NCBI RefSeq assembly: GCF_949628265.1
Contig: NC_088789.1
Coordinates: 30,311,883 to 30,375,882 of the forward strand
Reading direction: 5' to 3'
DNA: 64,000 nt
DNA from: Cloeon dipterum
Taxonomy: Eukaryota; Arthropoda; Insecta; Ephemeroptera; Baetidae
Under the pieces are notes generated by a model, which saw nothing but the letters and a program-made list of their open reading frames with translations, made no database searches and was not told where the DNA came from. Numbering within the stretch: the first letter of the stretch is position 1; every line of letters begins with the position of its first letter. Made by a program: the position numbers and the translations under genes. Below, in pieces: positions 25,859 to 57,536 of the stretch.

Positions 25859-27686
25859 ATGAGCAGCAAAATGGAGAAGAGTACTGTAACAAATACCGAA
25901 AGTACGAACGGTGGGCTATAATCCTTAGAAATTTGAACTCGTTTTTACAAATTCTTTTCTCAGATGTACTAAAAAATAACACAAAAAATCCTCCAAAGAT
26001 GGAAATGAAGTTGGCTGAAGAGAAAAAAGAAATGCTAGAGACCAAACTTGACTACGTCAAAGCGGAGGAAAAGGATAAGGAAACTGCAGCAAATACCGGA
26101 AGTACCAACGGTGAGTTATAATCCTTAGCAATTTGAACTCGTTTCCATAAATTCTTTTATCAGGACTCAAGAAGGAGCCGAAAAATCCTCCAAAGATGGA
26201 AAAGGAATTGACTAATCAGCCAAATGATATATTAAAGGCCAAGGTGGACTATGTCAAAGCGAAACGAGGCAACCTTCCGGCTCTGCACTTTGCAGCCTAT
26301 AAGACGGATGTTGAGGTTTGCCGTCATCTCGTTGAACAGAAGGGTGCCGATATAAATGAATTATGCAGTAAAAATGGCGCTACTGCTCTGCACTACGCCG
26401 CCATGAACGAACATCGCGGAGAAGATCTGATCGACTACCTCCTTGAGAAGGGATGTGACCTCGAAAAAACAGATAGTCATGAAAAGAAGCCTGTATTTTA
26501 CGCCCTCAAAGTTGGAAATTATGAGCTTGCAATCAAACTGTTCCACCTATCACAAGATCGTCGAAACCTTGAGAGTAGATCGAGCTTGCTATGCTTTTCT
26601 CTAGAGATGAACAACTTGGAATTCGCTAAATACGTCTCTAAGAACGATGAGATTTTATGCAAGGATCGAGATTATGATCTTCAAGTTATTCTGACAGCAT
26701 GCAAGTATGGAGATTTAGCGATCTGCGAGTGGCTGCATGAAGAGGTCAAAATACACTGTATGTGGATTTGGGAAGACACAGTGAAAAGCAAAATTCTTTG
26801 CCATGCAGCTTCGAACAGATACTATTCAAGAGAAATCCTTCAATATCTGTTCTCATTGTTACAATCCTCCACTGATGAACAAAGAAATGCGTATGGGAAC
26901 GCTCTTGTGGCAATTTTTCAAAGAAATACTTTCAATCCTGTAAGGGCAGAAATGTTGCTTGAGTTGTTAGGCTGTAATGTTAGGTTCAAAATATCAGGAT
27001 TTACTTTGATGCATTACGCCGTGACAAGCAGTCTAGCCGCAGTGCAGTTTGTGTACGGAAAGGACATAAGCCTGATCGACGTGGTCAGTGACGATGGTGC
27101 TACTGTTCTCCATCTCGCAGCAATGTTGGGAAACGTCGATATGTGCATGTGGCTGATCAATCACGGACAAGACATCTGCGCTGTGAACAAAAACAACGAT
27201 GGAACTTTCCTCCATTACGCTGCTCAGAACGTGAGCAGCGGGGACTTGATCATTCAAAAATTTGGACACAACCTGCTCGACTTCGTGAACCGAGTCGATG
27301 AATATTCCTACACTCCCCTTCATTTTGCCCTGGTCAACAAAAATAATGCAACTGAAATCGCTGGAACTTTGCTAAACTTTGGCGCCGATTTGAGCGTGAA
27401 ACAAAAAGGAAACAACTTCCTTCACTTCTGCATCGTTATGGGCAAGTTGGAATGTGCAAAATTCGTGCATGCCAAGGATAAAAATCAGATCAAGGAAAAG
27501 GGCGAAGGAGGAAAAACCACACTGCACATTGCTGCCGACCACTTCAATGAAGAAATCTGCGCATGGCTGGTGAGTGTGGGTGCCGATCCACAAGAAACTT
27601 CCGTCGGAGGTAAATCCGTGCTAGAATCCACTTGCAGTGCGGACGCCAAGAAGTTTTTCCAATCGGTGATCACAACCAAGAAATAG
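25859..27686 (+). CDS. Ankyrin-repeat protein A1, subfamily I (573 aa)
   Basis: Three coding exons: 25859-25910, 25964-26110, 26164-27686, all joined in phase 1. The start MSSKMEKSTV follows a shared acceptor. Exon 2 (KNPPKMEMKLAEEKKEMLE, LDYVKA) and the head of exon 3 (KNPPKMEKELTNQPND, VDYVKA) are duplicates, as are the introns before them. Ankyrin repeats then run almost to the C-terminus: LPALHFAAYKTD, TALHYAAMNEHR, PVFYALKVGN, a degenerate middle, TLMHYAVTSS, TVLHLAAMLGN, TFLHYAAQNVS, TPLHFALVNKN, NFLHFCIVMGK and TTLHIAADHFN. The tail is DAKKFFQSVITTKK. There is no signal peptide, membrane helix, kinase, death or SOCS-box domain I can see. Likely a cytosolic protein-binding solenoid of unknown partner. 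The frame is intact. Confidence 0.9.
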
Positions 27687-27822
27687 ACATATTTTCAAGA
27701 GTCAAATCATTGAATTAAATGTCGCATTCTGTATACTAAAATTCGCTGTACAAAATTAAAAGAGTTTTCCGCAAGATGAAAATCCGTCTTTGATTCCACT
27801 TTCACTGAAGAAACCAATAATT

Positions 27823-28198
27823 ACCCTTAGGATTCAGTCAAAGCCTAAATTGACATAAGGAGCGCTGTAATTTTTTGAGAAAATTGGCTGGAAAGTTAGC
27901 TTGCTTTTCAAATGGTAATGGCTGTCTCCTTACTTGAAATCCGATTTAATTTCAAAACCAAGAGTTTCCCCAATAAGTGGAATACACCGTTGGACAGATC
28001 TCGACCAGAGGAATCGGAATATGCCAAGAAAACATGTTCAAGCACTGCAAATTTTTAAGAAAATTGACAAAATTTGAATTTTTTGTAGGAAGGGCCGTTT
28101 TTAATTATTGCAAATTGTTGAACAAATTGTTTATCGGTTAATTTTTAAGGCATCCAACAATTTAAATAATTGTCGATTGTTGCCCAGTATCATTCCAC
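27823..28198. mobile_element. MITE family U, copy lacking left end
   Basis: From CCTTAGGATTCAGTCAAAGC to the right terminal CCCAGTATCATTCC this follows 13011-13386 closely. Its left end is lost at a junction with the A1 3' flank, and its right end abuts the inside of element B, so a deletion probably joined U and B. Confidence 0.75.
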
Positions 28199-29190
28199 TT
28201 TTAACCGTGTCACTGCTGGCCTGCCGCCGCTGCACGCTGGCCGCCGTGGCGTACGCTGGACGCTGGCCTGCAACCCCGCGACCGCCGCATACGCTGGCCT
28301 TTCACCCCACGGCCGCTTTACGCAGGCCGCCGCACGCTGGCTGCCGCAGCTAACGCTGGATGCTTCCAATTAATGCGGCGGCTGCCTCGTTTAAAATTTT
28401 AAACGTCAATATGACAAGGAAAAAACTTGTCAAATTGACAAGCGTCATTGGTAGCCTGCCGCTGCTGGCCGCCTTCGCTGCGGCCACGCCAGTACAGCTC
28501 GCCGCCCCCCGGTGTTGGCCGCCTCCTCCGCGGCCGCTCCTGGTGGTGGCCACTACCTCTGACCGGCCGCCCCTATAAGTTAAGCCGCCTCCTGCGCGTG
28601 ACCACCCAATTGCTCGCCGCCCCAGGTGTGCTCGCCGCACGACATTGCTTTATGTTATTTATCCCAATTAAATAAAAATAAATGCGGTGTGTGGAACATT
28701 AAACGTCTTGCCTTTTTGGTTTAATCCAGCACCAGAGGCACCACGAACACCAAATTTCGCACAATTTGGAGATTTAATGTGCATATTCCTCAAAGAGTCC
28801 GACCTCGAGCGGGAATATGCACAAAAAAATCAAATGCATCGCACTCAATTCCCGGATAAAACTGGACGCACGTCGTTAATGACCGTTGGTGTTGCTCTAA
28901 GTCTGAGATTTGAAGCTCACGCGAGATTGACGGTTTGTCTGCGTCTTAGCACGGATAAAACCTCTTGCTGCAACACATTTGAACCGCGTCAAAGCGCTTT
29001 GACAAGTTTTGACCATGTCATTTTGAGCAGGATATTTTTGACATGGATAAAGCCTCTCATTGCGATACGTTCTAACCGTGTCATCGCACTTTGACAAGTT
29101 TTATCCTTGTCGTGACAAGGTTTAACCTCGTCACTACGTCGCTGACCAGCTTTTTCCTTGTCAGCTTGACTCATTTTAGATACAGTGTAG
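28199..29190. mobile_element. Element B, copy 1, left-truncated, GC-rich core
   Basis: It begins inside the element at ACCGTGTCACTGCTGGCC and ends at the terminal TTTTAGATACAGTGT. The GC-rich core repeats GCTGGCCGCC-like words (28210-28640), in sharp contrast to the AT-rich surroundings. It is followed by a segment with AACCGTGTC, GACAAGTTTTATCC and GGATAAA-rich inverted words. Copy 2 at 34.0-35.3 kb has both ends. Open frames in the core are by-products of GC content. Confidence 0.7.
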
Positions 29191-29213
29191 ATTTGATTTG
29201 TTTTATTATGAAT

Positions 29214-29725
29214 GTAGGGTACCTACATTCCGTCAAACAATGACCATTCTTCAACACACAAATTCACACAACAGACAAATCACATTGTTTGACGAGCATA
29301 TATAAACCGACGCGACTCAATTCAAAGAGAGAATTCCTGCAGCAGCCTAGACGACCGGACCAACCCTGAGGACAAACTGGACGAGGACCCTGTAAGACGT
29401 AAAGATCGCCATCGCAGCAGGACGATTTTGCTTCCGTCCCCAATGTTGTCGATCGCACGCCTGGGCCTAAGCGGTACCACACTTCGGATGCTGCGCCCCG
29501 CTTCACCGAAGTCCCTGACGAACCCACTCGGACACGTCCCGAGTCTGTATTCCGTCCCACTCTCCGAGCCTCACTACCACTACACATTCAGCCGCGCAGC
29601 CCAGTCTACTTATTTCCGATGTCGTCCAATCTACCACAAGTCGCAGTCCACACACGCAGCCAACAGCAACAACTTTAATAAAATTCTTAACATAGGAAAA
29701 TACTGCGCATCGTAATTCTTTCCTA
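29214..29725 (+). mobile_element. Possible solo LTR (fossil), about 510 bp
   Basis: Relative to the copy at 35.34-35.36 kb, an insert of about 512 bases separates a duplicated TATGAAT (29207-29213 and 29726-29732). It contains a TATA box (CATATATAAA near 29298) and AATAAAATTC near 29680, the arrangement of a retroelement LTR; no internal coding region is present. Ends are not the classical TG/CA, so a different insertion type is possible. Probably young, because it postdates the segmental duplication. Confidence 0.45.
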
Positions 29726-29809
29726 TATGAATAATATACAACCGCTTGATAATATAATGTTTCAAAAGAGAAATGAAAAGGTAAACCTTCTTTTTTAATG
29801 TGCAACTGC

Positions 29810-31315
29810 GCTTTTAGGAAATGCTATAGGAAATTCGCGCGTCAAATTTCACTATCTTGTTGCCATTCAGAAGGTGGAACTCTAGTTTTTTCCTAAATAA
29901 CGAAGAATGCGCTGCAGTTATTAATCCTATGTGTGGTGTGGTGGGCTTTTAAAAATAAAAGTGCCGATCTACTATCTAACCAACTGATTGAATTTTTTAA
30001 ATATTGAAAATCAAGTGGTATAGTTACATAAATTAAATGCCTGAAGATTGAATTTGTATTGCACACCACAGTTAGGCCGCTTTTATTAAAATTTTCAACT
30101 GTCTCTTTCTCTTAATCAATTTACTGTCGCAATCTAATCTGTTTGCATTTTTTATGCTGTAATAGGCATGCGCCATACCACCTGTTGCATGGCTGCTAAG
30201 GAGAGTGAGATCAGGAGATAAAGAATTTTGAAACAATATCTGGCTAAAACCAAAGATATAAGGTTACAATTAGCATTTAAAAAGTTTTAACTGGTTTATA
30301 ATTGTTAAAAGGTAATTTCATTACCAAGATGCAGACTTTTGAATTTACAGTAAGTACATATTTTCTCTTTTTCTCCTCATCTCACACATCACAATTCATC
30401 TGCTGGACCAGCTGGGAGGTCTCCTTCATCTCCCTCTCTTTTGCTCGCTTGGTGCAGCGGCTGCAGCTGCGACTCACAGTGCTACTCTAAGCCTAGAGCA
30501 GTGAGCACGTAGCCCCGCATACTCTCCTCAATTTCTCGCCTGAAGCAGCGTCAGTTATCCGTAAGTCGCTAACAATAAGTCGTATTTTATATACATGTCT
30601 GGAATAGTCGGCCTGAAATTCCAAATTTAATACCCATTCCTGTCACTAAAACCTCGTGCTGTCGGCTCGAATTGCCTCTATTCAAAGAATATAACCCCTA
30701 TTTTGCCTAGGCACTTTTACTGACGCAAATATAAAAATGAATTCCGTCGTTTGTACAGTTTTCTCGATTAACTTTTAGACCGATGTACAGAGATATACTT
30801 TTTTAAATACGCATCAGATAAAATTTATAAAATAATCGCGAATACACATACCATAACGCAGAAAACAAAGATTGCTAAACGCTGAAGCTGCTATTATAAA
30901 TACGATGGATTTTAGACAAAGGAAGTGTTAATATGGCACAAATTATTGCGTATCGAAGAATTAATCTACAGATTTCTAAGATCACGTTGTTGAAGTTATA
31001 TTTTTAATTTAAAAGTGAGTAAATAAATAATGAAAATTTTCTTCTCCTTGTCGGACACGCCACTGCGGGGACAGTGTAATTGTCAACCGCTGACAATGAA
31101 AACACATGACTCGGTTTTACAGACAATGCATATAAGAATCTATTTTACAAAAATAAAGCTCTAGAAAGCATAAACTTGCAAAATGTTTTGCACAATTATT
31201 CCAGCATTCAATTAGTGTCAAAAGCAGGAAAAAATGAAAGAATAAATCTATGCTATACTGCGGTAAATAAAAAATAATTCTTTCTTTTTTTGTTTGCAGC
31301 CACGACTAAGCAACG
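29810..31315 (+). promoter_or_regulatory. 5' region of ankyrin gene A2 (duplicated unit)
   Basis: Equivalent to the A1 5' unit without the retroposed fragment and without MITE T. The non-coding exon-like stretch ends at the GTAAGT at 30561, and the acceptor TTTGCAG precedes 31300. The intron carries a diverged repeat V piece (CCTTGTCGGACACGCCACT near 31050). Confidence 0.6.
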
Positions 31316-33146
31316 ATGAGCAGCAAAATGGAGAAGAGAACTGTAACAAATACCGAAAGTATGAACGGTGGGTTATAATCCTTAGAAATTTGAACTCGTT
31401 TTTACAAATTCTTTTCTCAGATGTACTAAAAAATAACACAAAAAATCCTCCAAAGATGGAAATGAAGTTGGCTGAACAGCAAAAAGAAATGCTAGAGACC
31501 AAACTTGACTACGTCAAAGCGGAGGAAAAGGATAAGGAAACTGTAGCAAATACCGGAAGTACCAACGGTGAGTTATAATCCTTAGAAATTTGAACTCGTT
31601 TCCACAAATTCTTTTATCAGGACTCAAGAAGGAGCCAGAAAATCCTCCAAAGATGGAAAAGGAATTGACTAATCAGCCAAATGATATAGTAAAGGCCAAG
31701 GTGGACTATGTCAAAGCGAAACGAGGCAACCTTCCGGCTCTGCACTTTGCAGCCTTTAAGACGGATGTTGAGGTTTGCCGTCATCTCGTTGAACAGAAGG
31801 GTGTCGATATAAATGAATTATGCAGTAAAAATGGCGCTACTGCTCTGCACTACGCCGCCATGAACGAACATCGCGGAGAAGATGTGATCGACTACCTCCT
31901 TGAGAAGGGATGTGACCTCGAAAAAACAGATAGACATGAAAAGAAGCCTGTATTTTACGCCCTCAAAGTTGGAAATTATGAGCTTGCAATCAAACTGTTC
32001 CACCTATCACAAGATCGTCGAAACCTTGAGAGTAGAACGAGCTTGCTATGCTTTTCTCTAGAGATGAACAACTTGGAATTCGCTAAATACGTCTCTAAGA
32101 ACGATGAGATTTTATGCAAGGATCGAGATTATGATCTTGAAGTTATTCTGAAAGCATGCAAGTATGGAGATTTAGCGATCTGCAAGTGGCTGCATGAAGA
32201 GGTCAAAATACACTGTACGTGGATTTGGGGAGACACAGTGAAAAACAAAATTCTTTGTCATGCAGCTTGGAACAGATACTATGCAAGAGAAATCCTTCAA
32301 TATCTGTTCTCAAGGTTCAAATCCTCCACTGATGAAAAAAGAAATGCGTATGGGAACGCTCTTGTGGCAATTTTTCAAAGAAATACGTTCAATCCTGTAG
32401 GGGCAGAAATGTTTCTTCAGTTGTTAGGTTGTAGTAATGTTAGGTTCAAAATATCAGGATTTACTTTGATGCATTACGCCGTGACAAGCAGTCTAGCCGC
32501 AGTGCAGTTTGTGTACGGAAAGGACATACGCCTGATCAACGTGGTCAGTGACGATGGTGCTACTGTTCTCCATATCGCAGCAATGTTGGGAAACGTGGAC
32601 ATATGCATGTGGCTGATCAATCTCGGACAAGACATCTACACTGCAAACAAAAACAATCATGGAACTTTCCTCCATTACGCTGCTCAGAACGTGAGCTGCG
32701 GGGACTTGATCATTAAAAAATTTGGACATAAAGTGCTCAAATTGTTAAACCGAGGCGACAAATATTCCTACACTCCCCTTCATTGGGCCGTGATCAACAA
32801 AAATTATGCAATTGAAATCTCTAGAACTTTGCTAAACTTTGGCGCCGATTTGAGCGTGAAACGAGAAGGAAACAACTTCCTTCACTTTTGTATCGCTCAG
32901 GGCAATTTGGGATGTGCCAAACTCATACACGCCAAGAATTCAAATTTGATCAAGAAAAAGGGTGAAGGAGGAAAAACCACACTGCACATTGCTGCTGACA
33001 ACTTCAATGAAGAAATCTGCGCATGGCTGGTGAAAGAGGGGTGTGATCCCCGAGAATTGACCGTCGGAGGAAAATCTGTGCTAGAATCTACTTGCAGTGC
33101 GGACGCCAAGAAGTTTTTCCAATCGGTGATCACAACCAAGAAATAG
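31316..33146 (+). CDS. Ankyrin-repeat protein A2, subfamily I (574 aa)
   Basis: Coding exons 31316-31367, 31421-31567 and 31621-33146, with the same phase-1 introns as A1. The protein is close to A1 through the N-terminal and central repeats, including the duplicated N-terminal exon. One codon is gained in the centre (LLGCSNVRF against LLGCNVRF). The C-terminal third differs from A1 and matches A3: FCIAQGN, NSNLIKKKGEGG, AWLVKEGCDPRELTV. The frame is complete to the shared VITTKK end. Cytosolic ankyrin solenoid, partner unknown. Confidence 0.9.
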
Positions 33147-34008: not shown

Positions 34009-35335
34009 CTAAAATGGGTCAATTTGACAAGGAAAAAACTTGTCAAATTGACGATGACTGCGTTTTAACAAGCTTTAAACTCGTCACGGTTTTAAGCTCT
34101 TGACTAGCTAAAAGCTTGTCAGAGCATACTGTCACTGACTAGCTTAAAACTAGTTAAAACGGGGTCATCGTCAATTTGACAAGCTTAAACCGTGTCACTG
34201 CTGGCCTGCCGCCGCTGAACGCTGGCCGCCGTGGCGTACGCTGGACGCTGGCTTGCAACCCCGTGACCGCCGCGTACGCTGGCCTGTCACCCCACGGCCG
34301 CTTTACGCAGGCCACCGCACGCTGGCCGCCGCAGCTAACGCTGGATGCTTCCAATTAATGCGACGGCTGCCTCGTTAAAAATTTTAAACGTCAATTTGAC
34401 AAGGAAAAACTTGTCAAATTGACAAGCCTGCCGCTGCTGGCCGCCTTCGCTGCGGCCACGCCACTACCGCTCGCTGCCCCCCGGTGTTGGCCGCCTCCTC
34501 CGCGGCCGCTCCCGATGTTGGCCACTACCGCTGGCCAGCCGCTCATACGTTCGCCGCATCCCTGGTGCTGGCCGCCTCCGCTGCGGCCGCTCCTGGTGGT
34601 GGCCACTACCTCTGACCGGCCGCCCCTATAAGTTACGCTGCCTCCGGCGTGGCCATCCAATCGCTCGCTGCCCCCGGTGTGTTCGCCGCACGACATTGCT
34701 TTATGTTATTTATCCCAATTAAATAAAAATAAATGCGGTGTGTGGAACATTATACGTCTTACCTTTTTTGGTTTAATCCAGCACCAGAGGGACCACGAAC
34801 ACCAAATTTCGCACAATTTGGAGATTTAATGTGCATATTCCTCAAAGCGTCCGACCTCGAGCGGGAATATGCACAAAAAAATCAAATGCATCGCACTGCT
34901 TTCCCGGATAAAACTGGACGCACGTCGTTAATGACCGTTGGTGTTGTTCAAAGTCTGAGATTGGAAGCTCACGCGAGATTGACGGTTCGCCTGCGTCTTC
35001 GCACGGATAAAACCTCTTGCTGCAACACGTTAGAACCGTGTCAAAGCGCTTTTACAAGTTTTGACCATGTCATTTTGAGCAGGATATTTTTGAAATGGAT
35101 AAAGCCTCTCATTGCGACACGTTTGAACCGTGTCATCGCGTATTGACAAGTTTTAACTATGTCATTTTAAGCAGGATGTTTCGACATTTGATAAAACCTC
35201 TCATTACAACACGTTCTAACCATGTCATCGCACTTTGACAAGTTTTATCCTAGCCGTGACAAGGTTTAACCTCGTCACTACGTCGCTGTACAGCTTTTTC
35301 CTTGTCAGCTTGACTCATTTTAGATACAGTGTAGA
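34009..35335. mobile_element. Element B, copy 2, both ends present (about 1.33 kb)
   Basis: Inverted ends ACACTGTATCTAAAATGGGTCA and its complement (TGACTCATTTTAGATACAGTGT). Inside are repeated inverted words around TTGACAAG/CTTGTCAA, a GC-rich core of GCTGGCCGCC-type units (34195-34690), and a right part with a tandem repeat of about 92 bases (35060-35145 and 35146-35238; CATGTCATTTTGAGCAGGAT, AAGCCTCTCATTGCGACACG). Copy 1 has only one such unit and lacks about 75 bases of the GC core. No transposase frame is seen. Confidence 0.75.
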
Positions 35336-35439
35336 TTTGATTTGTTTTATTATGAATAATATACAACCGCTTGATAATATGATGTTTCAAAAGAGAAATG
35401 AAAAGGTAAACCGTCTTTTTTAATGTACAACTGCGCTTT

Positions 35440-36937: not shown

Positions 36938-38765
36938 ATGAGCAGCCAAATGGAGAAGAGAACTGTAACAAATACCGAAAGTACGAGCGGTGGGCTATAA
37001 TCCTTAGAAATTTGAACTCGATTTTACAAATTCTTTTCTCAGGTGTACTCATAAATAACACAAAAAATCCTCCAAAGATGGAAATGAAGTTGGCTGAAGA
37101 GCAAACAGAAATGCTAGAGACCAAACTTGACTACGTCAAAGCGGAGGAAAAGGAGAAGGAAACTGCAGCAAATACCGGAAGTACCAACGGTGAGTTATAA
37201 TCCTTAGAAATTTGAACTTGTTTCCACAAATTCTTTTCTCAGGACTAGAGAATGAGCCGAAAAATCCTCCAAAGATGGAAAAGGAATTGACTAAACAGCC
37301 AAATGATATATTAAAGGCCAAGGTGGACTATGTCAAAGCGAAAAGAGGCAACCTTCCGGCTCTGCACTTTGCAGCCTATATGACGGATGTTGAGGTTTGC
37401 CGTCATCTCGTTGAACAGGAGGGTGCCGATATAAATGAATTAAGCAGTAAATATGGCGCTACTGCTCTGCACTACGCCGCCATGAACGGACATCGCGGAG
37501 AAGATGTGATCGACTACTTCCTTGAGAAGGGATGTGACCTCGAAAAAACAGATAGTAATGAAAATAAGCCTGTATTTTGCGCCCTCAAAGCCGGAAATTT
37601 TGAGCTTGCAATCAAACTGTTCCACCTATCACAAGATCGTCGAAACCTTGAGAGTAGAACGAGCTTGCTATGCTTTTCTCTGGAGATGAACAACTTGGAA
37701 TTCGCTAAATACGTCTCTAAGTTCGATGAGATTCTATGCAAGGATCCAGATTATGATCTTCAAGTTATTCTGACAGCATGCAAGTATGGAAATTTAGCGA
37801 TCTGCAAGTGGCTGCATGAAAAGGTCAAAATACACCGTACTTGGTTTTGGGGAGACACATTGAAAAACAAAATTCTTTGCCATGCAGCTTCGAACAGATA
37901 CTACGCAAGAGATATCCTTCAATATCTGTTCTCAAGATTCAAATCCTCCACTGATGAAAAAAGAAATGCCTATGGGAACGCTCTTGTGGCAGTATTTCAA
38001 AGAAATACTTTCAATCCTGTAAGGGCAGAAGAGTTTCTTCAGTTGTTACGTTGTAATGTTAGGTTCAAAATATCAGGATTTACTTTGATGCATTACGCCG
38101 TGACAAGCAGTCTAGCCGCAGTGCAGTTTGTGTACGGAAAGGACATAAGCCTGATCGACGAGGTCAGTGACGATGGTGCTACTGTTCTCCATCTCGCAGC
38201 AATGTTGGGAAACGTGGACATATGCATGTGGCTGATCAATCACGGACAAGACATCTACGCTGTGAACAAAAACAATTTTGGAACTTTCCTCCATTACGCT
38301 GCTCAGAACGTGAGCTACGGGGCCGTGATCATTAAAAAATTTGGACCCAAAGTGCTCAAATTCGTGAACCGAGTCGACGAATATTCCTACACTCCCCTTC
38401 ATTACGCCCTGGTCAACAAAAATAATGCAACTGAAATCGCTAGAACTTTGATAACTTTTTGCGCCGATTTGAGCGTGAAACGAGAAGGAAACAACTTCCT
38501 TCACTTTTGTATCGCTCAGGGCAATTTGGAATGTGCCAAACTCATACACGCCAAGAATTCAAACTTGATCAAGAAAAAGGGTGAAGGAGGAAAAACCACA
38601 CTGCACATTGCTGCTGACAACTTCAATGAAGAAATCTGCGCATGGCTGGTGAAAGAGGGGTGTGATCCCCGAGAATTGACCGTCGGAGAAAAATCTGTGC
38701 TAGAATCTACTTGCAGTGCGGACGCCAAGAAGTTTTTCCAATCGGTGATCACAACCAAGAAATAG
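36938..38765 (+). CDS. Ankyrin-repeat protein A3, subfamily I (573 aa)
   Basis: Coding exons 36938-36989, 37043-37189 and 37243-38765; an extra in-frame ATG at 36935 gives MMSSQ. It has the duplicated N-terminal exon and about ten ankyrin or ankyrin-like repeats as in A1 (LPALHFAAYMTD, TALHYAAMNGHR, TVLHLAAMLGN, TFLHYAAQNVS, TPLHYALVNKN, TTLHIAADNFN). The C-terminal block (CIAQGN, VKEGCDPRELTV) is shared with A2 only. Frame complete; the end and 3' flank are nearly the same as in the other three. Confidence 0.9.
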
Positions 38766-40225: not shown

Positions 40226-41856
40226 ATGAGCAGCAAAAAGGACATGAGAACTGTAACAAATACCGGAAGTACCAACGGTGAGTTATAACCCATAGCAATT
40301 TGAACTTGTTATCATAAGTCCTTATATCAGGAGTTCTCAATAACACCCCAAAAAACCCTCCAAAGATGGAAATGAAATTGGCTGAAGAGCAAAAAGAAGA
40401 GCTAAATACCAAACTTGACTACGTCAAAGCGAACAGAGGCAAGCTCCCCGCTCTGCACTTCGCGGCCATGGTGTTGGATGTTGACGTTTGCCGTTACCTC
40501 GTTGAACAGGAGGGTGCTGATGTAAATAAAAAAGGCAGTAGATATGGCGCTACTGCTCTGCACTTCGCAGCCTTGAACAAAACCCATGGAGATGCTCTGA
40601 TCGACTACCTCATTGAAAAAGGAAGCAATCGTAAAGAAAGAGATAAAGATGATCAATGGCCTTTCGATTATGCCCTGAAAGTTAGAAATTTCAAGCTTGC
40701 AACAAAATTGTACTACCTATCACCATGTTGTGAAACTTTTAAATTAATGAAGAGCTTGCTACGTTATTCTCTAAAGGTGAAAAACTTAGAATCCGCTAAA
40801 GACGTCTCTATGAACGATAAGAAGTTGGGCAAGGATGATGAATATGATATTAACATTATTCTGAAAGCATGCAAGATTGCCGATTTAAGGACCTGCAGAT
40901 TGATGCTTGAAGAGTTCAAAATTCACGTCAGGTGGCTATCGAGAGACACATGGAAAGTCAAATTTCTTTGCCATGCAGCTGCGAACAGAAACCATGCAAG
41001 AGAAATCCTTCAATATCTGTTCTCAATGTTCCAAATCTCCACTGATGATCAAAGATATGCCTATGGGAATGCTCTTGTGGCAGTACTTGAAAGCGTACCT
41101 TTCAATCCTGCAAGTGCAGAAGAGTTTCTTGAGTTGTTAGGCTGTAATATTAGGTTCAAAATATCAGGATATACTTTCATGCATTACGCCGTGACAGGCA
41201 GTCTAGCCGCAGTGAAATTTGTGCACGGAAAGGACAGAAGTCTGATCGACGAGGTCAGTGACAATGGTGCCACAGTTCTCCATCTCGCAGCAGCTTTGGG
41301 AAACGTGGAAATTTGCGAGTGGCTGATCGAACACGGACAAGACATCTACGCTGTGAACAAAAACAATCATGGAAGTTTCCTCCATTACGCTGCTCAGAAC
41401 GTGAGAAACGGAGACTTGATCATTCAAAAATATGTACACATGCTGCTCGACTTCGTGAATTACTTCGACGATAATTACTACACTCCTCTTCATTGGGCCC
41501 TGGTCAACAAAAAAAATGCAATTTATAATGCTAGAACTTTGCTAGACTATGGCGCTTCTTTGTGCGTGAAAAGAAATGAAAACAACTTCCTTCACTTTTG
41601 TATCGTTAAGGGCAAGTTGGGATGTGCCAAACTCATACACGCCGAGAGGATAAAATTGATCAAGGAAAAGGGTGAAGGAGGAAAAACCACTCTTCACATT
41701 GCTGCCGACCACTTCAATGAAGAAATCTGCGCATGGCTGTTAAGTGTTGGTGCCGATCCTCAAGAAACTACTGTTGGAGGAAAATCCGTGCTAGAATCCA
41801 CTTGCAGTGCAGACGCCAAGAAGTTTTTCCAATCGGTGATCACAACCAAGAAATAG
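40226..41856 (+). CDS. Ankyrin-repeat protein A4, subfamily I, single N-terminal exon form (525 aa)
   Basis: Two coding exons, 40226-40277 and 40331-41856, joined in phase 1. MSSKKDMRTV leads into NPPKMEMKLAEEQKEELNT and LDYVKANRGKLPALHF, so the N-terminal exon pair found in A1-A3 is present once. The repeats diverge from A1-A3 in the first half (VLDVDVCRYLVEQEG, LATKLYYLSPCC) and are closer in the second half (TVLHLAAALGN, SFLHYAAQNVR, TPLHWALVNKK). The last about 60 residues are almost the same as A1 (AADHFNEEICAWLLSVGADP). This is probably the ancestral gene structure of the subfamily. Frame complete. Confidence 0.9.
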
Positions 41857-42291: not shown

Positions 42292-43817
42292 TTAAAATAT
42301 AAATAAATTTGATGCAAAATAAATAAAACGTACATTGTTTAGGGCCAATTTTTTTACGGCTATCGAACGCAGCCATTCTTTTATTTCAACATTTTTATAT
42401 ATGGTGCCGATGTGTATAGCAGTTCTCATGTTTCCACCCTCCAGCAGCTGGTGCTTGTACCTGGCGTACACAAACTTGGCGCCCTCTAGGAAATTAATCC
42501 CCAAGCAGTAGATCAGTAAATTGACAAAGCCCCTGAATTTCACCTTGGGATCTGCACCAATCCCGAGCAACGCCATTGCAGCGTCAAGGTTTGTATTCCT
42601 CATGGCCGCTTGAAGTGGAAAAAGTGGAGGGTCGTATATTCTGATGGGCACATTTACATACGGACGCACTATTTGAGCTAAAATAGTAATGAGATATGCA
42701 CCTTTCATCTGCCGCAGCAAAAGAGAGTTGAGAAAGGCTGGCATATGAGCCACCATGTCAGGGTCATTGAGACGGTCAACCAGCCACGCGTAAATTCCCC
42801 AGTTCCACGCGCCAGTCAGTAAGGTGTCCACGCTAATCCCTGTTCCCGTCAGGTTGTAAACGAACTGAATGGCCCGTATTGGACCTTTCGCCACGCAGTG
42901 GTCAAGGAGTGTTTTTCCTTCGATTATCACATTATTCAAGTTGGCACCACGCTCAACAAACATTTTGACGACTTCAAAGTTCACCAATTCTAACGAGTCA
43001 CTGGACATGACACGAACAAGAAGATCCGTCGATTCTTTCCTTGTCACGCCATTCTTGATGTGGTCCGAAAACATGAATCTGGCGATTTCCTCGCCATATT
43101 TCGCGTTGAGTGCGGCGTACCGAAGAATTTCAAGTTGCCATTCTTTGCTCTTGACCAAATTTTCGTCGATTCTGCTGGCGATCTCGACAATCCATTTAAA
43201 TTTTTCAATATTGGCGGTACATGCCGCATCATACGAAATGCTCTCATCGAATTCATCCTTGCCATTCACTCTGAACACTGACGGATCCATCTCAAAGGCA
43301 TATTTCAACAAATCTAGATCTTCATGAATGCAATGCGAAATAAAACTTTTCTGCGATTCAAATGCGTTGAACAGCTTGATTGCAAACTCAAAGTTCCTCT
43401 GGCGGAGAGCTATTATAACTGCATCAAGACCAAAATTATTTCTCCTTTCCATTTCGGCACCGTGATACGCGAAGAAATCGATCAATTGCAATCCGTTCTC
43501 GCAGGAGTTCTTGGCGGCACAATGATACACGTCGTTGCCATTTTTGTCCGTCACGTTGACGTCTGCGCCTTGATTCAGCACGAGTTCCTAGCAAACCTCT
43601 AAATCTCCGAATTCTGCAGCAGCCAGAATCGCAGGAATGGAACCTCTGCATTCGTTGACGAATTCCAATTTTTCTTCAAGAGATGCTTTTGGGTACAATT
43701 CCAGTTCCTCGCTTGACTCGAATTCCTCTACAAAAGGAAAATTCCTAAAATTCCAATTCTGGGCATTACCCGACATTACTTACGGTCATTGTTGCTCTCT
43801 CTTGGGAAATCACCCAT
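42292..43817 (-). pseudogene. Ankyrin-repeat gene A5, subfamily II, with one in-frame stop
   Basis: Minus-strand exons 43784-43817 and 42292-43727, joined in phase 1; the coding frame is open for 490 codons except for a TAG at codon 58 (43588-43590), where A6 has CGG (Arg) in the phrase GDLEVC-ELVLN. The first about 120 residues and the 5' flank are almost the same as A6 (GADVNVTDKNGNDVYHCAAK). The later part is its own (TLLTGAWNWGIYAWL) and ends with a longer tail, KKLALNNVRFIYFASNLFIF, not shared by A7 and A8. Either a recent pseudogene, a read-through gene, or a sequencing error at one base; downstream ATGs could still give a 429-residue protein. Confidence 0.8.
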
Positions 43818-49865: not shown

Positions 49866-51241
49866 ATGGATGATTCCCCAACAAGAGAGAGCAACAATGA
49901 CCGTAAGTAATGTCGTGAAATGGCCAGAATTGGAATTTTAAGAATTTTCATTTTGTAGAGGAATTCGAGTCAAGCGAGGAACTGGAATTCGACCCAAAAG
50001 CATCTCTTGAAGAAGAGTTGGAGTTCGTGAACAAGTGCAGAAGTTCTATTCCTGCGATTCTGATTGCTGCAGAATTCGGAGATTTAGAAGTTTGCCGGGA
50101 ACTCGTGCTGAATCTAGGAGCGGACGTCAACGTGACAGACAAAAATGGCAACGACGTGTATCATTGCGCCGCCAAGAACTCCTGCGAGAACGGATTGCAA
50201 TTGATCGATTTCTTTGCGACTCACGGTGCCGAAATGGAAAGGAGAAATAATTTTGGTCTTGATGCAGTTATATTAGCTCTACGCCAGAGGAACTTTGAGT
50301 TTGCAATCAAGCTGTTCAATTATTATGATTCGCCGAACAGTTTCCTGTCGCATTGCATTTGTGAAAAACTGGAAACGTTGAAATTCGCTTTTGAGAAGGA
50401 CGCGTCAGTGGTCAAAGTGAAGGGCAGTGACGAATTTGACAGGGAAATTTCGTATGAGGTGGCGTGGATGCACAGTCTTGAAACGTTTAAGTGGATCATT
50501 GAGATCGCTGGCAGCTCTAATTTAGTCGAAAGTGAAGAATGGCAACTTAAAATTCTGGAGCATGCCGCGCGCAATGACGAAGCTGGCGAGGATATTGCCC
50601 GCTTCATGTTTTCTTCCTACGCAACTAACTTGACCAGCGAAGATTTGACAACTCTTCTTGGTGTTGTCATGTATTCTTGTTTTCTGCCTTTTGTGAACTT
50701 GAAAGTTATTGCATTATTAATTGAACATGGTGCCGACGTGAACGTGAGCATAGAAGGGAAAACACTCTTTGATTACTGCGTTGCAGAAAATTCTTTAAGG
50801 ACCGCCCAGTTTTTGTACGAACTGGACCAAGAGAAGACGATTTGCTCGCGCACGTTGTTTTACGCGGCTTGGAAAGCGGACGTTGCGATGTGCGAGTGGC
50901 TGCTCGGGCTTCCCATGAATCCGCCCTTCAAAGATCAAATTCTTTTGTTTCTTTGCGCCGCTTCACAGAACGAGATATACGGCGAAGAAATTATTAGCTA
51001 CTTTATTCACGCTCCGGTCCTCCCTGCAAATGTTAACGTTCCCATTAATTTTTACCAAACTCCTCTCCAAGTGGCAATGAAAAATGGAAATCTCGGAGCT
51101 GCAGAAGCTTTACTGGAAATTGGCGCCGACTTTAACATAAATTATGGGACCAACCGCCAAGTTTGTGTTCCCCAAGGACAAGAGCCAACTGCCGGCGGGT
51201 GCTTTACAGGAAACCGCTATGCATATCTCCAAAATGTATAA
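49866..51241 (+). CDS. Ankyrin-repeat protein A6, subfamily II, altered C-terminus (439 aa)
   Basis: Exons 49866-49902 and 49959-51241, phase 1. MDDSPTRESNND, then SLEEELEFVNKCRSSIPAIL, GADVNVTDKNGNDVYHC and further ankyrin-type repeats. The N-terminal part matches A5; residues around FYAAWKADVAMCEWLLGLP match A8 almost exactly at DNA level. Near the end a deletion of about 55 bases relative to A8 (removing the LIYCLGVNYLDG segment) shifts the frame after GADFNINYG, so the last about 28 residues are unrelated to the family; the lost frame (MHISKMYK) continues in the DNA. Possibly still functional, because most repeats remain. Confidence 0.85.
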
Positions 51242-51704
51242 AACCAGGAAATGGGACTGTGGCTAATCAGTGTCTCCTTTTGGACACTGGTCAACTCCGA
51301 TATAAGTTTACTATTTTAAGAAAGAATTACACATTAATATATATTTATCAAAATTGAGTCTGAAATTTTATAAAGTACAATAAAATAATATATAAAATAT
51401 CAAACAAGCAAATGTTTTTATTGTATAATAAAGTTCCCTCTGCTAAATCTTGTGTGGCCTCCATCTGCTTGCTTATTTTACTTTTGTTAAGCTGGTCAGG
51501 ATTCTTTCAGTGTCTGTACAATTTGCATTTTTTTAATTTTAGCCTTTTCATTTCGTTCAGCCTTATCAAAAAAATTGGCGATTGATTGTAACATTGGTGA
51601 AAACAACAGTGAGTTAGAAAAATCCCGTTAAGTAACGCATACGGAGATTTTTGGTTATTAGCCTGTATAGTACAACGGTCTGAAGAAGGAAAAATTCCAG
51701 TCCA

Positions 51705-52134
51705 CTGGCTTCTCTGGAATTCATCAACGTGCTTAAAATGACAGGAGAAATTCCTGCTCTTTAAAGTCTTTTGTTCGCGGTAAGCCTGCTGGCTGATGAA
51801 GAGACTTGACAAAAATTCGTGAACAAAATACGAAAATGTCAACGTGACGGACAGAAATGCGGTGACGACGTTTTCCATCGTGCAACTGATATTGGTTTCT
51901 TTTAGCGCTGCAGAGCTAAGAAAGAAAGAAAGGGAAAATTCCAGGGAAGAAAATGCAGTCATATATTCGCTCTAATTTGGAAAAACATCGAGTTTGCGAT
52001 CAAGCTGTATAATTTCTATCAAAATCAGAGGGCATATTTCTGTATCATTGCTTTCGCAATCCACTAAAAATATTGAAACTTGCTTATGACTTTCGTGGCC
52101 AAACTCAAGGGCAGTGAAAATTTCGACGAATTCA
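51705..52134 (+). pseudogene. Decayed subfamily II ankyrin fragment (A-psi)
   Basis: Phrases in several frames recall the subfamily: LEFINVLK followed by GEIPAL, then NVTDRN, FAIKLYNFY, and AKLKGSENFDE, in the same order as in A6 and A8. Stops and frame changes prevent translation, and it stops abruptly where a family A MITE begins at 52135. It is on the plus strand between A6 and A7. Confidence 0.75.
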
Positions 52135-52402
52135 CCAGTTTCATAAACCCTTTAGTGTACGAAGCCACCAACAGATGGCGCAACCATAGACTTTGTTAAA
52201 AATTGATTTTTTAAAGAACTTCCGCTGTGATTTTGGACTCAATCTCGTTTGGTTTTCAGCACGTCAAAAGAAAAAATATTAAGTAAAGAATGCAGAGTAG
52301 CTAGATTGAGTCTGATATCGCAGCGGAAGTTGCTTTAAACTAAATTTTTAAGAAAGTCTATGGTTGCGTCATCTGTTGGTGGCTTTGAACACTAAGGGCA
52401 AA
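52135..52402. mobile_element. Hairpin MITE family A, internally deleted copy
   Basis: CACCAGTTTCATAAACCC at the left and GAACACTAAGGGC at the right, with CAACAGATGGCGCAAC, GACTCAATCTCG and GAGTCTGATATCGCAGCGGAAG inside. The central hairpin is shorter than in the 44.4-kb copy. Confidence 0.75.
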
Positions 52403-52894
52403 AATGAGAAGGAGAATTTATAGTAGCTTAATTCAAGCACATTATTCTTGCTAAATGTTTATCAAAACTGCTGCTGAGACTTTCCAAATTTAAGAAATAT
52501 AAAAAATATTAATTAAAGAAGAATTGTTTAATTAATTTTTAATTTATATACAGCTAGCGCAATCAATGATAACAAAAAAATCAAACACATATTTTGCAGC
52601 CGATTAAGATTTGTAACTTCCTCCACTCCTTATTAACTTGACGAACCCTGGTTCATGCGCCGTGCAACTGCGGAAGGTGGGAACAGTCCCCCTGATTTTA
52701 ATCTAAAGCAGTCAGCAAAGTGACAGAGGAAAAAGAGAGGGCTGCTCTAGCCTGTGATCTTTTATATTATTTAACTTATTTATACAAGTAAGTATAAGCT
52801 GTGAAGAAGTTATAGTTATTAATATGTTTATAAATAAACAGGAAAATAATTTAACTGATATAATTCTTATATTTTCCAGGATTTTTAATAAAAA

Positions 52895-54394
52895 ATGGAT
52901 GAATCATATTTTAGTGATGACTCAAATGAAAGTAACTACCGTGAGTAACAATTTTGATTGTTAAAATTGGAATTTAGCCATTTTTCTTTTGTAGTAGACA
53001 TATCCACAGATGAAGAAGAGCAATTCGAGGAATTCGATCAATCGGCATCTCTCAAAGAAAAGCTGGAATTTATCCACAGTGGCAACTGCTGCCCCAAAAT
53101 TCCAGCCATTCTGCACGCGGCAGAATTCGGTGATTTAGAAGTATGCAAGGAACTCTTGGAGCAGGGCGAAGACGTCAACGCTACAGACGAACATGGCTAC
53201 GACGTCTATCACTGCGCGTCTTTGAATAAAATCTGCGGTTTGGAACTGATCGATTTGTTTGCAGCCCACGGTGCTGAAATGAAAAGAATAAGTCGCTCTG
53301 GCTTTGATGCCGTCTCGCTCGCCCTCAGCGATAAAAACGTAGAGTTTGCGATCAAGCTTTTCAATTTATACGAATGGCCGAACAGCTTTCTTTCGTGTTA
53401 CCTTCGTAAAAGTAACGACTTGGAATTGATGAAATTAGCTTTTGAGAAGGACCCATCTGTGGCCAAAGTAAAGGGAGAAGACGGATTCGACAGGAAAATT
53501 TCGTATAATTTGGCGTGTTGGTCCAATCTAGAAGTATTCAAGTGGATTATTCACGTAGCCCGCAGCGTTGAAGAAGATGTAGTGAAACAGAAAGAATGGC
53601 AACTTCAAATTCTTAAGTACTCTGCTTTCAACGACCACGGCGAGGATATCGTCAACTTCATGTTTTCCTCGCTCATCAGGAATTTGACGAGACAAGATTT
53701 GACCCCTCTCCTCGTTACTGTCGTGTCATCTAGGATGCCTCAAGCTGTGAACGTGAAAGTTGTTGGACTATTAATCAAACATGGTGCCGACGTGAATGCA
53801 AGCATAAAAGGAAAATCCCTCCTTGATCACTACGTGGCGTTGAATTTATTATCGGCTGCCAAGTATATGCACGAATTGAACCCAAAGGAGATTTGCGCGA
53901 GCACCTTGAATTACGCCGCAGCGAAAGCGGATGTCGAAATGTGCCATTGGCTCGTTGGACGTCGCATGGCCCCCAAGATGAAAGACTTAATTCCTGATTT
54001 CCTCAACAGCATTACACGGAACCACCAACACGGAGCAAATCTCATTCGTCACTTTGCTCCAATTCTGAGTGATTATGTAAATATTGCCTCCGGAATGAAG
54101 CCATATGATCTTAAGAGTCCACTTCAATCAGCTATGGATAACAAAAACCTCAGAGTCGCTGAAGCTTTGCTCGAAATCGGCGCCGATTTGAACGTGAGAT
54201 ATAGGACCCTTAATCTGCTCATCTACTGCTTGGGGATTAATTTTCTGGAAGGCGCCATATTTGTGTACTCCAAGGACAAGAGCCAGCTGCAGGCGGGAAT
54301 AAGGGACACCGCTATGCACATCGCCAAAATGTATAAAAACCTGGATATGGAGCTATGGCTGCGTATAATGGCAGTGCACCCTTTTGGGCACTGA
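52895..54394 (+). CDS. Ankyrin-repeat protein A7, subfamily II (481 aa)
   Basis: Exons 52895-52940 and 52995-54394, phase 1. The N-terminus is acidic (MDESYFSDDSNESNY, then STDEEEQFEEFD), followed by SLKEKLEFIHSGN, IPAILHAAEFGDLEVCKEL, GEDVNATDEHGYDVYHCAS and further degenerate repeats, to IKHGADVNASIKGKSLLDHY, LNYAAAKADVEMCHWL and LLEIGADLNVRY. It ends with LIYCLGINFLEGA, MHIAKMYKN and HPFGH, shared with A8. The frame is complete and this is the cleanest subfamily II member. No second domain is seen. Confidence 0.9.
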
Positions 54395-55683
54395 TCAACT
54401 CTCTTTAATTTATTTCTCGGGAGAATTATTTAATTTTTCAATGCACGTAACGTATATTTCTATATACTTTTCTTTTTTAAGAAGTATTTTCATTTCAAGA
54501 TGGACAATCTGATCTTATAGCTAATAAATAAATAACTATGCGAACTAAAAAATCTTGTGTTATTTCCAACTAATGTGCGCTTCCCTAACTATATATGGAT
54601 ATAATAACAATTTAATTTGAAAATACCGATCAATACATGGTGTTTGCATTTCGCATTTATAAATTAAAAAAGACGAAATGCATAAAAAGATGCATACAAA
54701 ATTCTAGCAACAATAGGGATCAGTACATAATTCTTTTGAAAAAGGTCAACGAACTTCTCATCTGAGCTTATAGGTGGAAGAGAACAATTATTCCAGGAAT
54801 TCCTGTCAAAAATTTAATACCTGAGTGAATTCTTGGGATGTAACAAAACCTTTGAGGGATATCAAAAATTTTAAAAGGGTAGAAGTAACTCAAATAGTCA
54901 AATTACTCTTGTTGCCGACTTTTTTTTATCTCAAAATTTGTGAAAATTAAACCATGCGAAAATTTCCTTTTACGTAAGCTGATTCTAATCAGCGGGGGCG
55001 TTTGATAATTTTAAAATTGTTTAAAAAAAATCACTGCCGAATTGCTTGTTGACCTTTTTTGCAACAAAATTAAATTCGCTGTTGGTTGTTGAAAGTTGCG
55101 CAACTCAAATCAACAATTAAGGAATTGGAAAATTTTGAAATTTAATTTTTAAAATACCGTTCAACATTTGTGCTATTTTACATGTGGAAAAATGTATTTG
55201 ATACATTTTAGGGATTTAGGATATTTTTAGCTGCACATATTTTCTGCTTCCATGGAATTTCGGTTAGTTCCTTTTATCTGCTGCTCTTTGAGTAGGTCTT
55301 GCATTTGCTACACGGCTCTCCCTTTAAAAGGATAAATCAGTTTCCCAGCAATTTAATTTTACCTGTGGGATTGAAAGGAGGATCTCTGTTTCCTCCCTTT
55401 CAGATAGATTTGATTTATAGAAGTCCGTGTAGCAAAGAAAAACACGACAGAGGACTAGTTCTGCCTGCAACTTCACTTAACTTTATCAAAGATAAGGTAT
55501 GTAATAACTTTTTCTGACTTTCAATTACAGCGAGGAGCTCTCAATTTGTATTTTATGAAAAATTTCATATTTAGACATTTATCTTAATAATTCCTGTCTA
55601 TTAATCTTTGATAAGGATGTGTTATTTTTTATAATGGCAGGCCAATTGCGTTAAATAAATTTATTCGATCTTTCAAGTTTCTT
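54395..55683. other. Spacer A7-A8
   Basis: AT-rich sequence with no supported gene. A short stretch at 55.30-55.50 kb is open but has no splice or domain support. Confidence 0.45.
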
Positions 55684-55985
55684 AAAGACCGTCTTTGACA
55701 AAGTTTCTGAGCACACCAATCGATTCCTGAGGGTCGAATTTGGTAAAGTGGATATTTTCCCGCCAAACAATATGCGAGACGTGCGCATGCGTCAGAGCTG
55801 GTTGGATGTGACAAATTAGTCATTTGTACAGGCGGTCTCTCTGCAAGTTCCCAAACCAGCTCTGGCGCATGCGCACGTCTCGCATATATACGTTCATATT
55901 GTTTGGCGGGAAAATATCAACTTTACCGAATTCGACTCTCAAGAATCAATTGGTGTGCTCAGAAAGTTCGTCAAGGCGATCTTTA
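55684..55985. mobile_element. MITE family C inserted at the A8 start (TTAA ends)
   Basis: The copy begins TTAAAGACCGTCTTTGAC and ends GGCGATCTTTAA, with nearly perfect long arms (CACCAATCGATTCCTGAGGG, TGCGCATGCGTCAGAGCTGG). TTAA at both borders suggests a TTAA target, as for piggyBac-type elements. It ends three bases before the relic ATG of A8 exon 1. Confidence 0.85.
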
Positions 55986-56042
55986 AAAATGGATAATTCT
56001 TTATAGTGGTTCAGGAGAAAGCAACTACACCCGTCACTAAGC

Positions 56043-57536
56043 ATGGATGCCATGGATGATGATTTCTCAGAGGAGGAAATGGATGATGACTTCTCAGAAG
56101 AAGCCATGGATGATGACGATTTCTCAGAGGAGGAAGATCAAGAACCAATGATCATTCGAAGCGTGGACCCTTCCTCATCTCTCGAACAAAAGTTGGAATA
56201 CATCAACAGGCATAGAAAACACATTCCAGCCATTCTATACGCAGCAGAATTTGGGGATTTAGAGGTTTGCCAGGAACTTGTGAATCAAGGTGAAGATATC
56301 AACGTGAGGGACATTTACGGCTACGATGTCTACCACTACGCATCTATGAACGCCAAAAACGGACTGGAACTGATCGATTTCTTCAAGTTTTCTGGTGCAA
56401 TAATGGAAAGGGAAAATGTTGCTGAGGTTGATGCAGTCACGTATGCTCTCCACGAATGGAACTTTGACTTTGCGATCAAGCTTTTCAACTGCTACGAATC
56501 AGAAGAGGCATCAAAGCTCAGCTTCCTTTCGTATTGCATTTGTTCTTCACTGGATTTATTGAAGAAAGCTCTCAAGAAGAATCCGTCGGTGGCCAAAGTG
56601 AAGGGCAGTCACGAGGTGTTCGACAAGGAAATTTCGTATGAGGCGGCAAGTTCGGCCAATCTGGAAAAATTCAAATGGACTGTGAAGATCGCCAGACGCC
56701 TGAACAAAGATTTGGTCCTCAGCAAAGAATGGCATCTTAAAATGCTCAAGTGTAGCTCACTCAATCGTAACCACGGCGAGGCAATCGCTAGTTTCGTGCT
56801 TTCCTCTTTCAAAATGAACTTCACGAGAAAAGATTTGACAACTGTCCTTACTAAGGTCGTTGCATCTTGGCCGCATTATTTGAACTTGAGGGTTGTCGGA
56901 ATGTTGGTTGAACATGACGCCGACGTGAATGCAACGATTCGAGGAAAGTACACCCTTTTCGATTACTGCGTTGCGGAAAATTCCTTAATGGCCGCCCAGT
57001 TTTTCTACGCACTGGACAAAGAGGAGAAAATTTGCTCTCGCACGTTGTTTTACGCGGCTTGGAAAGCGGACGTTGCGATGTGCGAGTGGCTGCTTGGGCT
57101 TCCCATGAATCCGCCCTTCAAAGATCAAATACCTTTGTTTCTTTGCGCCGCTTCACAGAACAAGAGGTACGGCAAAGAAATTATTCGTTACTTTGATGCT
57201 CCGGTTCTTCGTGCGAATGTCAATGTTCCCAGCAAGTTGTACGAACCTCCCCTGACTCCACTCCACTTGGCAATGAAAAATGGAAATCTCGGAGCTGCAA
57301 AGGCTTTGTTTCGGATTGGCGCCGACTTGGGCGTAAAATTTGAGGGCGTTAATTTGCTGATTTACTGCTTGGGGGTAAATTATCTGGACGGCGCCAAGTT
57401 TGTGTTCTCCAAGAACAAGAGCCAACTGCTGGCTGGCACATTACCGGAAACCGCCATGCATATCGCCAAAATGTATGAAAACCAGGAAATGGAACTATGG
57501 TTGCGTGGAATCGTACGGTTCCCTTTTGGGCACTGA
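56043..57536 (+). CDS. Ankyrin-repeat protein A8, subfamily II, new acidic N-terminus (497 aa)
   Basis: A single exon from the ATG at 56043. It opens with three tandem copies of a DDFSEE unit, then SSLEQKLEYINRHR, IPAILYAAEFGDLEVCQEL, GEDINVRDIYGYDVYHYAS, EHDADVNATIRGKYTLFDYC, FYAAWKADVAMCEWLLGLP, LHLAMKNGNLGAAKALFRIG, LIYCLGVNYLDGA and the HIAKMYEN..FPFGH end. Upstream, 55989-56035 resembles A7 exon 1 (ATGGAT, GAAAGCAACTAC) but has a stop and a weakened donor (CGTCAC). So A8 probably lost its two-exon start after the MITE inserted and now starts in the repeat. The translation start is inferred. Confidence 0.85.
   Translation: MDAMDDDFSEEEMDDDFSEEAMDDDDFSEEEDQEPMIIRSVDPSSSLEQKLEYINRHRKHIPAILYAAEFGDLEVCQELVNQGEDINVRDIYGYDVYHYASMNAKNGLELIDFFKFSGAIMERENVAEVDAVTYALHEWNFDFAIKLFNCYESEEASKLSFLSYCICSSLDLLKKALKKNPSVAKVKGSHEVFDKEISYEAASSANLEKFKWTVKIARRLNKDLVLSKEWHLKMLKCSSLNRNHGEAIASFVLSSFKMNFTRKDLTTVLTKVVASWPHYLNLRVVGMLVEHDADVNATIRGKYTLFDYCVAENSLMAAQFFYALDKEEKICSRTLFYAAWKADVAMCEWLLGLPMNPPFKDQIPLFLCAASQNKRYGKEIIRYFDAPVLRANVNVPSKLYEPPLTPLHLAMKNGNLGAAKALFRIGADLGVKFEGVNLLIYCLGVNYLDGAKFVFSKNKSQLLAGTLPETAMHIAKMYENQEMELWLRGIVRFPFGH

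Follow-up and report, generated by a model that had tools for sequence, protein, structure and literature searches.

The window (the whole stretch of 64,000 nucleotides that was analysed) carries an array of ankyrin genes between positions 25859 and 57536. ORF listing and a Pfam scan found eight ankyrin ORFs in this interval, and the eight copies and one decayed fragment reported in a first-pass annotation were all found at the positions claimed. The features are given below with those of their surroundings that are referred to in the text.

14466..15446, minus strand: distant ankyrin cousin, outside 25859-57536, 33% identical to I1 in alignment
25100..25279, no strand assigned: MITE-like dispersed element of ~180 bp, in the I1 unit only and absent from the I2 and I3 units
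25859..27686, plus strand: I1, exon 1 25859-25910, duplicated mini-exon 25964-26110, ankyrin exon 26164-27686
31316..33146, plus strand: I2, exons 31316-31367, 31421-31567 and 31621-33146, ankyrin exon intact
36938..38765, plus strand: I3, exons 36938-36989, 37043-37189 and 37243-38765, ankyrin exon intact
40226..41856, plus strand: I4, exon 1 40226-40277, ankyrin exon 40331-41856, intact, the duplicated mini-exon being absent
42292..43817, minus strand: II1, exon 1 from 43817, ankyrin exon with an early in-frame TAG
49866..51241, plus strand: II2, exon 1 49866-49902, frameshift close to the 3' end of the ankyrin exon
51714..52142, plus strand: decayed ankyrin fragment, frame broken, 31% identical to II2 (E 6e-7)
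52895..54394, plus strand: II3, exon 1 52895-52940, ankyrin exon 52995-54394, intact
56043..57536, plus strand: II4, single-exon ORF with an acidic N-terminus

Subfamily I is arranged in tandem, as first annotated, with I1 to I4 all on the plus strand and sharing 63-88% protein identity; the units of I1 to I3 are 93-94% identical in DNA. The mixed orientation described for subfamily II was also found, II1 being on the minus strand and II2 to II4 on the plus strand, at 47-61% identity. Position 25859 is the ATG of the short first exon of I1, a gene recognised by its ORF and by Pfam, with exons modelled from splice signals and frame, that is from sequence alone. The window genes appear to be spliced, a small intron separating a short 5' coding exon from one large ankyrin exon, and the same layout was seen in 60 loci, 24 of which, among those listed, entered the exon-layout alignment. 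In II4 a stop is present at the ancestral exon-1 site near 55989, and in some clades, e.g. IIb and C, the ankyrin exon opens with basic stretches. Frames are preserved, as had been stated for the whole array, in six of the eight ankyrin exons but not in II1 (TAG), which is likely a pseudogene, nor in II2 (frameshift), which is likely a pseudogene or truncated. The element at 25100-25279 has copies in the genome and inverted repeat arms and lies at a break in the alignment with the I2 and I3 units, in keeping with a MITE-like insertion.

The surroundings are gene-poor only in a relative sense because, besides the ankyrin cousin at 14466-15446, the array has C2H2 zinc-finger genes and cullin-like pieces as neighbours. 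Alternative 3' exons in common with these zinc-finger genes were considered and rejected, because their upstream exons are unlike those of the ankyrin genes.

All of the eight window genes show tandem ankyrin repeats, and no other domain, over the Pfam cut-off, which upholds their description as ankyrin-only. Ankyrin models also matched all of the 17 other family members scanned (out of 60 loci), and no effector or ligase-adaptor domain was found by Pfam in the window genes or in these 17. A fold search returned ankyrins, and AlphaFold predicted a solenoid for I1 (pLDDT 84.0) and II4 (pLDDT 81.3), which may be read as ~13 irregular repeats. The cousin at 14466 aligns in two registers, which suggests a longer internal repeat. 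A profile search of the whole genome with PRANC (PF09372) gave no match over the cut-off and three weak ones at E 1.7-8.1. A conserved C-terminal tail acting as effector was also considered, and site rates gave no support for it.

Two genome searches, once merged, yielded 126 related loci, of which 114 are packed into 4.5 Mb of one chromosome (C4, 28.6-33.1 Mb). The window array is a small part of this far larger family and is not isolated. Clustered duplicates are accompanied by pseudogenes, as seen here in the disrupted II1, II2 and fragment. No description of this ankyrin cluster was found in the literature searched, and the word 'ankyrin' is absent from the main text of PMC7250882, PMC11491810, PMC9960361 and PMC5960102.

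Young, repeated duplication had been proposed for the array, and this applies to I1 to I3 (pairwise dS 0.05-0.10; 0.27-0.28 against I4) but not to subfamily II, which is older (dS 0.82-1.06). Gene conversion among I1 to I3 is likely because shared-derived sites are patchy along these genes: the 14 that I1 and I2 have in common are all located before nucleotide 1046, and of the 32 common to I2 and I3, 26 are at nucleotide 1044 or beyond. There was no sign of GC-biased conversion, recent nonsynonymous changes being 18 weak-to-strong and 19 strong-to-weak.

The patchiness of these sites would suit an explanation in which a duplication-prone region is under relaxed constraint, the copies drift in a near-neutral manner and any signal of positive selection arises as a side effect of gene conversion and misalignment. 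Whole-gene omega is 0.75-1.04 among I1 to I3, and values are near 1 in the subfamily I clade; both favour this explanation, as does the disruption of two of the eight window copies. Recent changes in I1 to I3 (52 nonsynonymous, 22 synonymous) point the same way, since at ~2.4 nonsynonymous per synonymous change on the tips, against an opportunity of ~3.2, there is no nonsynonymous excess. However, stops are fewer than neutrality would predict. None is present in I1 to I4, a complete local set, where ~23 would be expected, and in six disjoint clades, for which ~485 nonsense changes would be expected, a stop was found in 6 of 55 sequences, the locus choice favouring intact copies.

Codon models, fitted with our own implementation and proportional branch lengths, also speak against relaxed constraint. 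M2a was superior to M1a in all six disjoint clades (2dlnL 17.0-103.1) as well as in the window's four subfamily I genes (2dlnL 12.5). Across the six clades the fast class comprises 6-22% of codons at omega 2.5-4.6, to be read with the caveat that gene conversion can inflate site models, and a constrained class comprises 28-45% of codons at omega <=0.21. When gene thirds were given their own trees, 12 out of 12 were significant (four clades so tested). Null simulations, run for two sets, reached a maximum of 4.1 in 40 runs for the window four (observed 12.5) and of 6.8 in 13 runs for the second set (observed 103.1). Considering also the lack of GC bias, we regard relaxed constraint as unlikely, while taking it as the foremost of the alternatives; if true, it would provide a clean case of duplication alone multiplying repeat proteins.

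The fast sites were then located on the repeat, whose positions were anchored by hand, ligand-facing positions being those that touch the target in designed ankyrins. With six clades pooled, fast sites were enriched at ligand-facing relative to other exposed positions (p=0.0002), and the enrichment was significant singly in four of seven sets. It was not significant in clade D (p=0.074) or in subfamily I (p=0.42 for I14, comprising 14 genes; p=0.066 for I_win4, the four window genes), where fast sites are found on helix B as well. The earlier proposal that binding-surface variety is maintained is hence supported in part: across the family it has the support of the site models and the pooled test, while in subfamily I the site models favour it but the enrichment is not significant and I1 to I3 lack a recent nonsynonymous excess.

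The reading we prefer, with confidence evenly balanced between acceptance and doubt, is that the array belongs, as a young offshoot, to a chromosome-scale family of ankyrin-only binding proteins that evolves by birth and death, with intracellular antagonism as the likeliest setting. The sequence shows both tandem and inverted duplication among the clustered copies, some of which are decaying. Each protein would form a ~13-repeat solenoid gripping a protein target via finger loops and inner helices, and a new copy would be kept if its modified surface binds a target that has changed in turn. The antagonism would most probably set a virus, microbe or selfish element against its host, and because no effector domain was found, the solenoid is proposed to block or sequester its target.

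We consider it doubtful that the more than 100 clustered loci constitute a germline repertoire of natural DARPin-like binders, an intracellular recognition library in which an arms race keeps the target-contacting residues diverse. Such a library would be comparable to plant NLR clusters, but made of ankyrin repeats only.

A further alternative, and an improbable one, is that the genes encode endogenous developmental or reproductive regulators, turning over through network or gamete co-evolution and not through parasites. A precedent is given by the CLANK genes of Nasonia, some of which have a role in dorsoventral patterning (Pers and Lynch 2018, PMC6161386, in the portion of the article available), and the basic stretches with which the ankyrin exon opens in clades such as IIb and C would suit nuclear entry. 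Against this, no PRANC match over the cut-off was obtained, and the host is seemingly not a chalcid wasp, as judged indirectly by telomere motifs and Orco identity. The chalcid telomere motifs (TTATTGGG)3 and (TTACTTGGG)3 had no matches in the genome, nor had (TTAGG)5. Orco is well conserved among insects, and the three Orco pieces detected here, some of which cross introns, showed 34, 36 and 44% identity to chain 6c70, which we take to be Orco of Apocrypta bakeri, and 27, 32 and 47% to Drosophila, in a comparison made with no chalcid control genome. A search for COX1 gave a single broken match, below the cut-off. A newer assembly of Cloeon dipterum comprises about 190 Mb in five chromosomes. 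For the same species a 180-Mb assembly and a single Orco are reported in the available text of PMC7250882; that of PMC8977481 gives TTAGG as missing in Ephemeroptera and Odonata and states that no tandem motif was found in Diptera. The telomere and Orco results argue indirectly against Trichogramma or another chalcid wasp and would fit a mayfly.

It is very unlikely that the genes came from a virus or by horizontal transfer, as symbiont effectors or in the manner of polydnavirus genes: the best bacterial match lies on a contig of Wolbachia (28% identity, residues 26-492) and giant-virus and pox ankyrins lead the viral fold search, but the Wolbachia protein, the one inspected of 80 bacterial loci, consists of near-consensus repeats and shows no particular resemblance, the one relative among 22 viral stretches is likewise a generic array, and the genes here have introns and a common exon layout.

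The CLANK genes of chalcid wasps are, in the available portion of PMC6161386, likewise a large, fast-duplicating and intron-bearing ankyrin family, and a lineage-restricted one, as the present family may be. Many of them have PRANC or PRANC-like C-termini (2 of the 15 CLANKs studied have no C-terminal extension), whereas no PRANC match over the cut-off was obtained here; they are dispersed in Nasonia, whereas 114 of 126 loci here occupy a single stretch, and their hosts are chalcids, which the present host probably is not. If our preferred reading is true, the present genes are candidates for a recognition family in a lineage of insects, perhaps mayflies, with little-known conflict genes; their cluster size and residue pattern would predict the target-touching residues and infection-responsive copies.

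Clustered birth-and-death recognition families include nematode F-box, nematode MATH-BTB and plant NLR genes. These show chromosomal clusters and pseudogenes, as here, and diversifying selection on the binding face, which the pooled test suggests for the present genes as well, but differ from the present family, in which no effector or ligase-adaptor domain was found. DARPins share the fold, and the repeat positions randomised in them (2, 3, 5, 13, 14 and 33) are, with clades pooled, the faster positions here. Unlike DARPins, these are natural proteins, of ~13 irregular repeats, and birth-and-death of binding proteins, if true, would make the family a natural, testable counterpart of designed ankyrin binders.

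All eight ankyrin open reading frames (ORFs) that the first-pass annotation had placed at window 25859–57536 were recovered by ORF and Pfam scanning, and the decayed fragment it described lies at 51714–52142. The array is genuine and, as had been claimed, young, and it belongs to an ankyrin family of chromosome scale. The units of I1–I3, three of the four subfamily I genes, share 93–94% DNA identity; I4, the fourth, is older than these. Pairwise dS is 0.05–0.10 among I1–I3, 0.27–0.28 between I4 and I1–I3, and 0.82–1.06 within subfamily II (II1–II4). The frames had been described as preserved, but II1 has an in-frame TAG and II2 loses its reading frame near the 3' end; therefore six of the eight ankyrin exons are intact.

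The window also contains the following features, the first identified by ORF, Pfam and protein comparison:

14466–15446, minus strand, a ninth, distant ankyrin gene
10229–11734, plus strand, C2H2 zinc-finger ORF
59649–60572, plus strand, C2H2 zinc-finger ORF
62267–63100, minus strand, C2H2 zinc-finger ORF

The Pfam cut-off was passed by two of the three zinc-finger ORFs. The cysteine-rich exon upstream of them resembles a ZAD domain by eye, and no Pfam match was found in the two of three upstream exons scanned. Pieces resembling a divergent spliced cullin gene occupy 5300–8000 (plus strand); the ORF at 6748–7170 (plus strand) matches Pfam Cullin at E 4e-7, under the curated cut-off, and the remaining pieces were assessed visually. 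Ubiquitin ligases use cullins as scaffolds. An ORF of about 136 codons is repeated between ankyrin genes (28687–29094 and 34733–35146, plus strand); a Pfam scan of the former gave no match.

Two protein queries against the genome (190.1 Mb, 10 contigs) listed at least 148 and at least 96 matches, in at least 243 distinct places merging to at least 126 loci; these counts are lower bounds because only the best candidates were scored, and some merged loci form part of ankyrin ORFs that are larger or more distant. Contig C4, which carries the array, holds at least 118 of the loci, and at least 114 lie within C4 28.6–33.1 Mb, about 2.4% of the genome. In a tree of 60 loci the clades consist largely of locally clustered copies, although megabases separate some members. 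Just past the window are two truncated II4-like copies of 96–97% identity (L040, G000:C4 30377603; L041, G000:C4 30413404), each with TAG where the copy breaks off. A general ankyrin search also listed open ankyrin frames of about 1,100–2,700 residues (longest 2,699), most of those listed being on C4:

C4, 29–36 Mb
C1, 36.7 and 42.2 Mb
C2, about 1 Mb
C5, 29.1 Mb

The genome also has three Orco pieces, with 34–44% identity to chain 6c70 and 27–47% to Drosophila Orco, some alignments extending across introns. Neither chalcid telomere motifs nor the TTAGG repeat were found in the genome; PMC8977481 describes TTAGG as missing in Odonata and flies too. The Orco and telomere results fit a mayfly such as Cloeon dipterum, without proving it, and speak indirectly against a chalcid wasp, the host considered initially together with the CLANK genes of that group.

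The sequence upstream of the ankyrin exon was inspected at 60 loci and aligned for 24. Many have a short coding exon 1 followed by a small intron bounded by GT and AG, which is in phase 1 in the modelled window genes; II4 is without both. In I1–I3, a tandem duplication running from within exon 1 through the intron into the first part of the ankyrin exon has given an extra 147-nt exon, open and with phase kept in all three copies, and the first donor is GTGGG instead of GTGAG. These structures are models predicted from sequence.

For the 14 subfamily I genes a one-ratio omega of 1.006 gives no improvement over a fit with omega held at 1. Codon site models with a class of omega above 1 (M2a) improved on those without (M1a) by 2dlnL of 103.1 for these genes, 12.5 for the subset I1–I4, and 17.9 for eight genes from the clade that includes subfamily II of the window; four further clades gave 67.7, 83.1, 17.0 and 80.9. 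The fast class comprises 6–22% of codons at omega 2.5–4.6, and 28–45% of codons in the six disjoint clades have omega of 0.21 or below. M1a null simulations, covering two sets, reached at most 4.1 in 40 runs on the four-gene tree and 6.8 in 13 runs on the 14-gene tree. Gene thirds on their own trees gave 2dlnL of 11.8–50.1 in 12 of 12 tests, taking in four of the six clades (all except II_win, the window's subfamily II clade, and D). The family thus shows site-level signs of positive selection.

Weighing against this, the recent changes confined to a single one of I1–I3 comprise 52 nonsynonymous and 22 synonymous, so that these newest copies have no nonsynonymous excess (about 2.4:1 observed vs an opportunity of about 3.2:1). 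Their shared-derived sites are distributed patchily along the gene, and conversion between copies is therefore likely. Under neutrality about 485 nonsense changes are expected across the six clades and stops were observed in 6 of 55 sequences, the loci having been picked by best protein match, which biases toward intact copies. The fairest nonsense figure is that of I1–I4, a complete local set, with no stops vs about 23 expected if neutral.

Repeat positions were anchored by hand and transferred to other clades via the family alignment. At positions 2, 3, 5, 13, 14 and 33, in the numbering of designed ankyrin repeat proteins (DARPins), the posterior of omega above 1 exceeds that at other repeat positions in all seven sets (p 0.0002–0.017; all p values are from permutation with sites taken as independent, and per-set values are uncorrected for the number of sets). 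Because surface sites evolve faster anyway, exposed helix-B positions served as comparison. Against these the excess is significant in four of seven sets (II_win, 0.038; and clades IIb, 0.0008; C, 0.0012; E, 0.0006) and not in the 14 subfamily I genes (0.42), I1–I4 (0.066) or D (0.074); pooling the six disjoint clades gives p=0.0002. The strongest subfamily I sites include loop and inner positions of repeats 3–6 and helix B of repeats 7–12. The suggestion that variety in the binding surface is being kept is thus supported by sequence for the family, but lacks significance in subfamily I.

In the eight window genes ankyrin models alone exceeded the Pfam cut-off; among 17 other members scanned, the sole non-ankyrin-type match below E 0.001 (2.5e-4, in one) was taken as chance. 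AlphaFold models have mean pLDDT of 84.0 (I1) and 81.3 (II4), and I1 as modelled reads as 13 ankyrin repeats. Any function of the family is putative. Fold searches returned ankyrins and DARPins, and also viral ankyrin proteins, matches that indicate the fold and nothing more.
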